A stretch of DNA of 64,000 nt, taken from NCBI GenBank assembly GCA_009746045.1, contig RPFO01000050.1, forward strand, positions 4,006,949 through 4,070,948. The letters are read 5' to 3'. The notes below the pieces were generated by a model. It made no database searches, was not told the origin of the DNA, and saw only the letters and a list, made by a program, of their open reading frames with translations. The stretch comes from Mesostigma viride. Its lineage: Eukaryota; Streptophyta; Mesostigmatophyceae; Mesostigmatales; Mesostigmataceae. Numbering within the stretch: the first letter of the stretch is position 1; every line of letters begins with the position of its first letter. This document shows, piece by piece, positions 6,420 to 57,305 of this stretch. The position numbers and the translations under genes are program-made.

Positions 6420-6655
6420 GCACCCACAGTATATGTTACGTTGCGCCCGGGGCACCATGCTGTGGATAGATCGAGCGCTCTGTGGCCTGCCCGGCCACTT
6501 GTGGCAGTGCAAGAAGCTAGGGCGCCCTCCGGCCCGGCCGGCCGGCCTCCTTCTCGATCATTGTGTATAGGGGTCAAGACGGTTCCTTTACTTTGTATCA
6601 AGGCACCCATGTGACGCAGTCACATGTGATCATTAATGTATTAATTAATTAATTG
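6420..6655 (+). repeat. Short retroelement-like repeat with palindromic 3' end
   Basis: Second copy of the family at 440-645. The palindrome here is catgtgacgcagtcacatg (6608-6626): both arms differ from the 462-480 copy at the paired position, so the hairpin is kept. The tail is (TTAA)n at 6639-6654. The insertion abuts the GGH gene and supplies its stop codon. Confidence 0.65.
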
Positions 6656-9600
6656 CATGGTGCGCAATCTCACATGGGCATGACTGCTTACTGACTGATT
6701 CCCAGGAGACCGTAGTGGGAAGAGGTAGAGCTGAACAGAGCCGATCGCTCGGTCAGCCTTCTCGCTAAACCAGGGAGGATAATTATAGATCAAGAGGTCC
6801 ATCTCGGACTGCAGGGTGTCAGGCTTGTGGGGGCACTTGCGAGACTCGCTGCATTTGGCACATTTTCGTGTGGAAATAGCCCGTGCAGGAATGGGGTCGA
6901 GAGAGAGGGAACAGAAAAACAAATAAGTTTGGTGGCATTAGCCAGATTGGATGAGGCAAGGGTGGCATACATGTCAAATCCTTTGCTTCGTATACAATAG
7001 TTCAGGAATAGCTGTCTCACTTAATAAGCGGGGAAATGCTTGTAGACGCCGGAATTACAAAAGACCGAGGAAGTCTGCACCATCATGAATGCTGACGCCA
7101 GGATGAACTTACCTAGGAACTTGAGGTAAGCGCTCTTTCTAGGAAACTATTGGGGGGGGGGGGGGGGGGACACTATTTACATGGACATACGCCACGATGT
7201 ACGCCATGTACTTATTGCCACTGGCAGTCCCGCACCATGGAACGTACTGAAACCTGGTAGCTGTGACCATCCAGAATACTGACATTACGTCACAGAGCAC
7301 ACATCCTCAAGGGAAAGAGTGGGTGGTGGTAGTTAACCAGCTTCTTAAGCACGATGCTGAAGATATCCTGTCCCTACCAAGCTTCTTAACCCACACACAA
7401 TGCAGAAAATGCCCGTCTAGTAGTACATCTACAGCAATGCATCCAAACCAAGTCCGTGGAGCACCAGGTGCCTGTAGCCACCCTGGAATCGAAGGGGAAA
7501 TCTTAGCCGATCCGCGCCAAGCTGGGCACGTTGACCGGCTACAAGCACTAGCGTTGCTCGTAAGCCATACACATAATGAGTACGAGCGATTGGATGGGTG
7601 CCTAATTAATGCCCATTACTACTATAATCAGCCGGCAAGTATATAATCAGCAAGCACGTGCGTTGCTAGGATACAAGCACAGCAGGCACATCAACTGCCC
7701 TCAACACCCTATCTGGAACCCATCATTCATAAACATCGAGCACATGAGTCAAGGGTTTAAAGGGGCACGCCAAGCCCACTCCTAATCACAACAAGGACCT
7801 AGTCTCCTAGGCTCAGGACCTGGCCTTGGCTTTCATGGATCCTTGATCAACTATTCCCATTCTGGACAGGCACCAAAGGAAGCCTGCCGATGAGCCACAT
7901 GCCCGCATACTTTCGCTATGGTAGGGATCACCATCCCAACAAAGTAGTATAATACTCTAATATGGTACTCTAGTAGTATAATACTCTAACATGGTACTCT
8001 AGTAGAACAATACTCTAGTATGGTACTCTAGTAGTATAATACTCTAATATGGTACTCTAGTAGTATAATACTCTAGTATGGTATACTCTCGCTCTGACTC
8101 ACTCGGCAATGAAGTTGGCCACCCCTTGCGTGATCTCGACCGCATCCCGGCTGTGGGGCGTCGTCGACCAGATCCACTCGAACGCGTTCTTTTCGGGGTG
8201 CCACTGCGTGGCAGAGAAGGGAAAGTGCTTTGCCTCCATGGTCGACACATACTTCTGCGAAGGATGGCGAATCGGGGGGGGCTACTTTTGGAACAAAATC
8301 TGTAAGTGAAAGAGGCTCAAAGGACTGTGGCGGGGTTGAGTTGCCCCTCAAGAAGGACTCGAGCCAAGGCTGTGTGACATGATTTACGGAGAGTAACCAA
8401 CCAGCCTGGATGTCAACCCTAGGCGCAGTCCGGTCCCAACGGATGGATCCCGCCACCTTGCTGTCTTGATAGCGAAGATTAAGGCCCCTTTCTTGATAGC
8501 GAAGATTAAGGCCAAGCGGGCGCCGCGTATCCCCTACCTTGCCATTGAGGTTCTGACCGTTTCGGGTGGGGAGTTGAGGTCTACCCCCTACCTTGCCATT
8601 CTGGTTGCAACTGCGAAGGGTATACGGGCGCGCTCTGGTTGCAACGGCTTAGGGTGCAAGGGGCCATTCTGGTTGCAACGGCTTGGGGTGTAAGGGGCCA
8701 TTCTGGTTGCAACGGCTAAGGGTGTAAGGGGCCATTCTGGTTGCAACGGCTTAGGGTGTAAGGGGCCATTCTGGTTGCAACGGCTTAGGGTGTAAGGGGC
8801 CATTCTGGTTGCAACGGCTTAGGGTGTAAGGGGCCATTCTGGTTGCAACGGCTTAGGGTGTAAGGGTGACAGTGCATCGCCCACCTTTCCGTTTTCGTCG
8901 TGGCTGTAGGACAGCACCCGGAAAAAGGTGGTCAAGTTCTTGTCCGCATGAAACTTGGCTGGAGAGATCCCTTTCTGCCGTTCAACAGGTGAAACAGTGC
9001 CAGGTAGTCCCGAGGTTGGAAGAGACGGGGTGAAGGAGCAGGTTGGTGGAGATGAGCGGGGGAAACAGCAGCAGGGGGTGAAAGTGTCCGAAGCACGTAC
9101 ACTCAGAAATGTGGAAACAACACGGGACATTGGCCAAAATCAGGACTGGTGTGGGGGGCACACGGCCGGGGGAGGGAGGGAGGCTTGGGAGGCATCTTGC
9201 AGCACTTTCCACATAGGCAGGCTTGTTCCAAGCGGGTATCGCTCTATCATGATGATGATGATGATGATGATGATGATGATGATGATGATGATGATGATGA
9301 TGATGATGATGATGATGATGATGATGATGATGATGATGATGATGATGATGATGATGATGATGATGATGATGATGATGATGATGATGATGATGATGATGAT
9401 GATGATGATGATGATGATGATGATGATGATGATGATGATGATGATGATGACGAGGAGGAGGAGGAGGAGGAGGAGGAGGAGGAGGAGGAGGAGGAGGAGG
9501 AGGAGGAGGAGGAGGAGGAGGAGGAGGAGGAGGAGGAGGAGGAGGAGGAGGAGGAGGAGGAGGAGGAGGAGGAGGAGGAGGAGGAGGAGGAGGAGGAGGA

Positions 9601-56700: not shown

Positions 56701-57159
56701 TGCCACACGGATGGATAGATATGCTACCTGCGGGCCTTGTGGCCCATGGCGGGATGTCCTAACTGCGGGATGTGTGGATACGCCGCAGGAGCCACCCATA
56801 TGACCACTACCTGATCATCTTTATTTCATGTGATGTAGACGCGGTGCAGCTCCCCATGATACGCCGCAGGAGCCACCAGGATGATCAATACCGAACCCAA
56901 CAAGGGGTGTTCTGTGTGGTGTGGCATATGGCGCAGGACCCAACGATATCGAACACAATACCAAAGAGGACCTAGCTAAAAGGGGTCATTTCTATGTTGC
57001 ATGGAACGTGGCCCAGGTCCCAACATCGCCAAGCAGAGCACCCACGGGTTCACCCACGGCATGTTTGTGCGGCTGCCCTCGACCGCCGCGCTCGCCGACT
57101 TCTACCGCCTGCCGTCCCAGCGGAAGACGTTTGAGGACTACGTGCTGCCGTTTGTGGAG
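50727..57159 (+). CDS. Dabb-domain (stress-response A/B barrel) protein, 3' end not found
   Basis: Exons: 50727-51013 (ATG, transit-peptide-like, Ser/Arg/Leu-rich, 95 codons), 55912-56039, 57017-57159. Exon 1 ends in phase 2 (AT|GTAAGC) and exon 2 takes exactly one base, which supports joining them although the link is inferred. Exons 2-3 give PVLEHVVLLRVRASTSPEDE, LSLTIGPNIAKQSTHGFTHG and KTFEDYVLPFVE: the beta-alpha-beta-beta Dabb fold with its conserved HVVL, TxG, THG and YVLP motifs, also found in plant HS1/POP3 antimicrobial and stress proteins. The final strand (normally D-x-x-x-x-D) is missing: no convincing last exon is seen before the retrotransposon at 58029. Exons 2 and 3 have in-intron copies of their ends. 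Confidence 0.78.
51585..55292. repeat. 3.7-kb minisatellite, 26/27-bp unit, in Dabb intron 1
   Basis: About 138 units of ccatcccatatccccattag + cagtttt. Variants: cggt/cagt, atat/atgt/agat, tag/cag/taa, and a 26-bp form (ccc for cccc). Higher-order order is visible: blocks of several units recur (52741-52890 resembles 53331-53480; 52890-53110 recurs near 53470-53560). The 27-bp unit is nine codons, so long Gly-Trp-Lys-Thr frames appear on the minus strand, but the 26-bp units break every one. Confidence 0.95.
55293..55911 (+). other. Dabb intron 1, 3' part
   Basis: Unique sequence with short direct repeats near its end: gctggagcatgtc at 55790-55800 foreshadows the start of exon 2 (ctggagcatgtcg, 55919-55931), and ccatgacatg words fill 55850-55900. 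No other exon is recognised. Confidence 0.5.
55979..56147 (+). repeat. 78-bp tandem repeat over Dabb exon 2 donor
   Basis: The last 60 bp of exon 2 plus the first 18 bp of intron 2 are duplicated in tandem with one change (56059-56136), followed by a partial third unit. The 78-bp period keeps the reading frame, so three identical GTGAGC donors are reachable in frame. Confidence 0.92.
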
Positions 57160-57305
57160 GTAGGGGATTTGGGAGGACCCGGAGTGTGTGTTTCATCGTT
57201 GTAATACGCCTTTGCGCTGCCGTTTGTGGAGGTATGGGAAGGGAGGACACGGAGTACGTTTTGCCACAACAGTTTGTTTTCGTGCCGCTGTTTGTGGAGG
57301 TAGCT
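57140..57305 (+). repeat. Three copies of Dabb exon 3 donor
   Basis: gtgctgccgtttgtggaggt (57142) recurs at 57214 (gcgctgccgtttgtggaggt) and 57282 (gtgccgctgtttgtggaggt), about 70 bp apart; all three keep GAG|GT. Confidence 0.85.

Follow-up and report, generated by a model that had tools for sequence, protein, structure and literature searches.

The window analysed here is a stretch of 64,000 nucleotides from the streptophyte Mesostigma viride (assembly GCA_009746045.1, 439,911,974 bp in size; contig RPFO01000050.1, forward-strand positions 4,006,949 to 4,070,948), whose genes carry what we refer to hereafter as exon-edge echoes, i.e., further copies of an exon end and its splice site lying within the neighbouring intron. 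The Pfam domains Peptidase_C26, Amidase, Dabb, MGDG_synth and PRISE are found in the window, and we modelled the exons of GGH, GatA, MGD and PRISE and some of those of Dabb, giving 22 modelled introns. Two of these models are 100% identical, over the full model length, to annotated proteins: PRISE (380 aa) to Mesvir1/21762 (eukprot, 441 aa) and GGH (362 aa) to Mesvir1/21758 (440 aa). A search of the protein database returned no Dabb protein, and the Dabb model is thus confined to the inner exons; relatives of PRISE, sought on viral contigs, were not found there. In the published Mesostigma annotation, the mean intron measures 1141.9 bp and repeats make up 30.1% of intron space (PMC6947507).

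Each splice edge was represented by a 40-nt probe (30 nt of exon and 10 nt of intron, without a complexity filter) that was aligned to the adjoining intron against a background of 100 dinucleotide shuffles, with an echo called at a score of at least 16 and z>4. By this measure, a strong direct copy is present in the adjoining intron at 10 of the 45 splice edges tested in the five gene models: the GGH exon 2 acceptor, the GatA exon 3 and 5 donors, the PRISE exon 2, 3 and 5 donors and exon 4 and 6 acceptors, the first modelled Dabb donor, and the Dabb acceptor at 55912. The ten splice sites named in the original prediction, which was made from the letters of this stretch, all proved to be echoed (nine by the probe test; the tenth, the second Dabb donor at 57159, by its +72 and +140 copies, this edge standing outside the 45 because its next exon is not modelled), and acceptor 55912 is an addition to that list. 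The prediction that the MGD stop codon is likewise echoed was borne out (score 24, equalled by 0 of 200 shuffles), so that splicing is not a condition for an echo; the same probe approach detected none at the remaining seven start or stop edges of four genes. The series are as follows, with copy positions given relative to the functional edge.

10671 to 10855, minus strand: GGH exon 2 acceptor (exon start 10690), copies 67 bp, 136 bp and, weakly, 237 bp upstream in intron 1.
15712 to 16498, plus strand: GatA exon 3 donor (exon end 15736), two copies in intron 3, one at +755 and one, donor-like with a matrix score of 10.1, at +519.
18663 to 18903, plus strand: GatA exon 5 donor (exon end 18694), copies at about +166 and about +203 in intron 5.
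21504 to 21867, minus strand: MGD stop-codon edge (coding sequence end 21840), a decayed copy series in the 3′ flank, its single repeats read by eye.
44094 to 44430, minus strand: PRISE exon 6 acceptor (exon start 44122), copies 101, 201 and 301 bp upstream in intron 5.
44975 to 45110, minus strand: PRISE exon 5 donor (exon end 45092), copy at +102 in intron 5.
46624 to 47110, minus strand: PRISE exon 4 acceptor (exon start 46647), copies 103, 211, 309 and about 453 bp upstream in intron 3.
47626 to 47754, minus strand: PRISE exon 3 donor (exon end 47734), copy at about +105 with its GT lost and its intron part not homologous.
48880 to 49084, minus strand: PRISE exon 2 donor (exon end 49058), copies at about +100 and about +170 in intron 2.
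55768 to 55932, plus strand: Dabb acceptor (exon start 55912), copy 132 bp upstream, intron part at p 0.055.
55969 to 56160, plus strand: Dabb donor (exon end 56039), within a 78-bp tandem duplication whose exon part is 61/62 identical.
56920 to 57043, plus strand: second Dabb acceptor (exon start 57017), a weak copy 80 bp upstream (score 13, reached by 4 of 100 shuffles), below the counting threshold.
57133 to 57305, plus strand: second Dabb donor (exon end 57159), copies at +72 and +140.

The controls for these counts are informative as to what is, and is not, copied. Edge copies are direct and local, with no inverted copy at any of the 45 window edges and none in the non-adjacent introns of the same gene (0/188). 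The claim that exon interiors are absent from introns holds but for a single probe, 1 of 199 exon-interior probes finding an intronic match. Intron interiors are themselves repetitive: 14.5% of 1478 intron-interior probes score, and after removal of 231 low-complexity probes the figure is 10.2% of 1247, chiefly owing to one array in GGH intron 3 and another in MGD intron 7. A direct-repeat scan of the whole window, blind to the gene models and run after masking 8168 bp of arrays of short period or many copies, was used in place of a self-BLAST (which gave 20 matches); it recovered 54 repeat pairs at one threshold, compared with 0 and 1 in two shuffles, and 59 with three thresholds merged. Within the 22 modelled introns, the repeat families comprise 8 at edges and 15 in the interior. 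Assemblies are capable of duplicating short stretches; most copies, however, are well diverged from their originals and the same pattern recurs on three other contigs (below), such that an assembly artefact, or chance similarity in the face of the shuffle counts, is scarcely credible, and we regard the exon-edge echoes of the window as a real observation.

The anatomy of the duplicated unit bears on how the copies came to be placed. At splice edges, the nearest copy lies 67 to 519 bp from its exon, and the exon part varies in length from 15 to ~70 bp among series. When the nearest copy of each series was tested, the intron part of the unit proved homologous (global p≤0.05) in 8 of 12 series (the GGH exon 2 acceptor; the PRISE exon 2 donor, exon 4 acceptor, exon 5 donor and exon 6 acceptor; and the first donor, second acceptor and second donor of Dabb). 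In GGH, Tandem Repeats Finder reports a period of 67 at 10679–10855 and the intron part of the 67-bp unit is 33/40 identical; for the PRISE exon 5 donor the intron part gives p 0.045, becoming 0.20 without the 12 nt next to the junction. For the GatA exon 3 donor the intron part is not homologous by global alignment (p 0.995), with a local match at p 0.01, and no homology was detected in the intron part of the GatA exon 5 donor unit. The exon part was the more similar of the two in 16/16 comparisons, a result to be read in the knowledge that the copies were found through an exon-rich probe. The nearest copy is also the best-scoring one in 8 of the 10 series with at least two copies (a hand count; the exceptions being the GGH exon 2 acceptor and the GatA exon 5 donor).

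A spacer flanked by direct repeats is also what a mobile element (an introner or other transposon) would leave were it to duplicate the exon edge on insertion, and an insertion templated during break repair might do likewise. The GatA exon 3 donor has this appearance, with a 27-bp copy 519 bp away and the rest of the interval without clear homology, and three further series likewise lack such homology. Introners resemble one another across genes. The likeness of the echoes to introner elements (PMC9860276) extends to repeated sequence beside splice sites and ends at the spacers, which are unrelated to each other: among 11 window spacers, compared on both strands, none of 110 comparisons reached z>4. 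The variable length of the exon part is unlike a fixed target-site duplication, the intron part is common to the copies in two-thirds of the series, and templated insertion would be expected to yield some inverted copies, whereas none is seen at the edges; we therefore consider insertion of either kind highly improbable.

Decay of the copies takes no account of the GT that donor copies carry. Mismatches in the exonic part fall near-evenly over the three codon positions (23/164, 23/170 and 26/169, from 20 window copies at 11 edges), indicating that most changes have occurred in the intron copy; in the CCT genes introduced below the counts are 15/121, 17/130 and 29/129 (17 copies, one exon without an assigned frame being excluded), perhaps reflecting some synonymous change in the exons themselves. 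Counting only those letters that lie within local alignments, the GT of window donor copies is retained at 19/22 letters, compared with ~0.85 in the flanks, and that of the CCT donor copies at 23/25; GT is lost in 3 of the 11 listed donor copies.

These values are unfavourable to the proposal, made in the original prediction, that selection retains the copies as spare splice sites or decoys. A stop codon is present in 7 of 8 donor extensions (the exception being the 78-bp Dabb copy, an open, in-frame extension, such that use of the inner donor would add 26 aa), and, although 5 of 8 tested donor spacings are divisible by three (P 0.09), 4 of those 5 extensions contain a stop. The AG of acceptor copies is intact at 18/18 letters in the window and 6/6 in the CCT genes, a small excess that selection could explain, and 4 of the 11 listed donor copies reach a matrix score of at least 7, compared with 3.1% of 1243 intronic GTs; the good donor scores are, however, accounted for by recent descent from a functional donor. 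Retention as decoys is thus very improbable, although gene finders should be wary of those 4 inner donor copies, which resemble good donors.

Taken together, copies that are direct and local, whose units are homologous on the intron side as well in 8 of 12 series, and that decay without regard to GT point to tandem duplications across the junction; probably an exon–intron or coding–noncoding border chanced to lie within the duplicated stretch, and the echoes are what decay has left of it. Under such a scheme a segment of ~30–500 bp, often 70–170 bp (the last or first tens of bases of the exon, the splice site and some intron), would be duplicated head to tail, presumably by slippage or unequal exchange. 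The outer copy would stay the spliced one, since only then is the protein unchanged, and the inner copy would turn into intron and decay. Purifying selection on the exon copy would keep it recognizable against its decaying twin for roughly double the time over which two intron copies could be matched to each other, while duplications lying wholly within exons would be removed by selection, those that persist in introns being presumably neutral. Repeated events would give a series of copies, the freshest usually adjoining the exon. The original prediction held that the functional copy always lies at the edge of its series; for PRISE and GGH this stands by annotation, the outer splice sites being those used in the annotated proteins, and in the other genes the reading frame suggests the same. 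The shortness of the exon part might be thought to argue against tandem duplication, but we dropped this argument upon finding a similar ratio in simulation (the exon part amounts to a median 0.24 of the spacing over 12 series, compared with 0.24–0.33 simulated). Birth of the introns themselves through duplicated AG/GT was also considered and rejected, with similarity between donor and acceptor of one intron found in 0/22 introns.

Two further sets of genes place the window in the context of the genome. The first comprises three CCT/TCP-1 genes on two other contigs, obtained from a homology family search (58 matches) and picked for having many exons within 10 kb; their introns were unseen at selection, and exon edges were fixed before the echo test, with family match, reading frame and splice motifs as guides (for three exons, the gene finder alone). 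This set has 19 introns, with 4 of 44 edges untested for having too little intron and the last exon of one gene (L036) excluded. Echoes were found at 7 of 40 CCT edges, with empty controls (inverted copies 0/40, exon interiors 0/124) and complexity-filtered intron-interior probes scoring in 77 of 954 cases. The trait is therefore not peculiar to the window. The second set, from a contig referred to as C1, is an ab initio exon set and less certain: of its 7 gene pieces, 4 have Pfam support above the cut-off (WD40, TGT, UvrD_C, AAA), 1 falls below it and 2 have no match. Here 6 of 53 edges are echoed (two of the six, in gene piece L021, scoring just 16), compared with 20 of 252 pseudo-edges, and inverted copies number 0/53. 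Over the window, the predicted C1 genes and the CCT genes, 23 of 138 edges are echoed, or ~1 in 6; the trait is dense and widespread in this genome, and its origin is probably ordinary.

The original prediction had put forward a comparison of edge copies with copies of random intron or exon segments, and this came out as an excess of edges in each of the three sets when set beside intron interiors, which is not the outcome that the prediction had named as refuting it. Fisher P values, computed as though the probes were independent (they are not), are 0.016 for the window (10/45 edges against the filtered interior rate of 10.2%), 0.045 for the CCT genes (7/40 against 77/954) and 0.29 for the C1 genes, where the reference is pseudo-edges. 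Such an excess is predicted by a passive cause: as exons are conserved, an exon–intron pair decays about half as fast as an intron–intron pair. We simulated uniform tandem duplication, with within-exon duplications rejected, introns decaying and exons conserved. For families with a spacing of at least 60 bp (a threshold set after the window had been seen), the simulated edge share is 0.24–0.32; over all spacings it is 0.10–0.11 where units are as short as those of interior families, and 0.23–0.28 with longer units.

It is against these simulated shares that a duplication process favouring borders, also raised in the original prediction, has to be judged; break repair at R-loops, nucleosome edges or GC steps, for example, might place exon-edge copies into introns. 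In the window, pseudo-sites drawn from the same introns average 3.39/42 echoes, compared with 9 at the real edges (P 0.00045; 42 of the 45 sites had a pool), and the edge share of long-spaced families, given below, counts in its favour as well. The window was, however, picked for its echoes, making the CCT set the fairer test, and there the edge share at spacings of at least 60 bp is 6/15 (P 0.20–0.31), with no clear departure from simulation. The longer-unit model also accounts for the share over all spacings without excess (pooled P 0.15–0.41), the C1 edges give P 0.29 against pseudo-edges, and the non-spliced MGD edge is echoed too. A border preference is not required by the CCT set, itself small, if units of 70–170 bp, as found at edges, are common. 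The strong preference first read from the window is weakened, though not removed, by the CCT set.

Several observations nonetheless weigh against tandem duplication that is indifferent to borders. The window edge share at spacings of at least 60 bp, 8/11, lies above the modelled 0.26–0.31 (P 0.005–0.015 with matched periods; P 0.0000 in 5000 resamples against each of two longer-unit models), and remains so when pooled with the CCT genes (14/26, P 0.003–0.013). Over all spacings, the short-unit model is exceeded by the window (8/23, matched in 0/263 resamples of similar total), by the CCT genes (6/23, P 0.023–0.034) and by the two pooled (14/46, P 0.0001–0.0003). The nearest spacings of the five PRISE series are near-constant at 100, 105, 103, 102 and 101 bp across three introns (44094–49084), which random unit lengths do not predict; other genes differ. 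The intron part, moreover, is not shared throughout: once the 12 nt next to the junction are set aside, it is homologous in just 5 of 11 testable series, and the GatA exon 3 and exon 5 donors, the PRISE exon 3 donor and the first Dabb acceptor lack such homology with or without those 12 nt. The small excess of intact acceptor AG belongs here as well.

Border-favouring duplication, which the edge shares of the window, the short-unit comparison and the PRISE spacing would fit, thus strikes us as unlikely yet worth keeping in view. More tentative still is the broader reading that tandem duplication prefers exon borders, such that introns would grow inward from both ends by repeated edge copying, each intron thereby preserving, in part, stacked fossils of its own borders at a favoured step (~100 bp in one gene). 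The comparison over all spacings led us to raise our estimate of both slightly, the latter by less, and to lower that of tandem duplications that merely happened to span a border, which we continue to hold probable.

A search of the open-licence literature found no description of such exon-edge echoes, and the closest relatives, besides the introners treated above, are two. Tandem duplication across coding sequence is a source of novel intron positions in the Rogers-type model, as set out by Lehmann et al, 2010 (PMC2891723), and the echoes resemble this mode of intron gain in being short tandem duplications with splice signals, one copy of which turns into intron. They differ in that the duplicated AG/GT there makes a new intron with similar ends, whereas in Mesostigma the intron pre-exists and one end is copied inward. 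Minisatellites and decayed intronic tandem repeats share the head-to-tail units, the several copies and the variable decay, and plain arrays of this kind occur in the same Mesostigma introns; unlike them, the echoed unit reaches into the exon, so that one copy is frozen and provides a template of known sequence.

In Mesostigma, a basal streptophyte whose introns are long, the echoes would represent a simple, countable route of intron lengthening. The exon end being a nearly unchanging template, every echo carries the date of the duplication that made it. Such dating would make it possible to measure genome-wide how often short tandem duplications arise, how long their units are and how well splicing tolerates a duplicated site; fresh echoes could directly test whether borders attract duplications.

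Other repetitive and foreign-looking features were encountered alongside. Just upstream of the Dabb exons, 51582–55295 is the site of a 27-bp minisatellite in ~139 copies, with a higher-order periodicity of 107 bp. By eye, open reading frames at 36728–41068 resemble the endonuclease/reverse transcriptase of a non-LTR (long terminal repeat) retroelement, and the intervals 58897–59874 and 61377–62354, 2480 bp apart, hold the same long open reading frames, one of them retroelement gag-like with a zinc knuckle. Elsewhere in the genome, the gene-dense stretch C1:5000001–5020000 (L022, L023) contains a capsid N-terminus piece (PF16903, E 8.7e-9) and a DUF5906/helicase-like piece (PF19263, E 1e-10), and with these giant-virus-like genes looks like an integrated large DNA virus.

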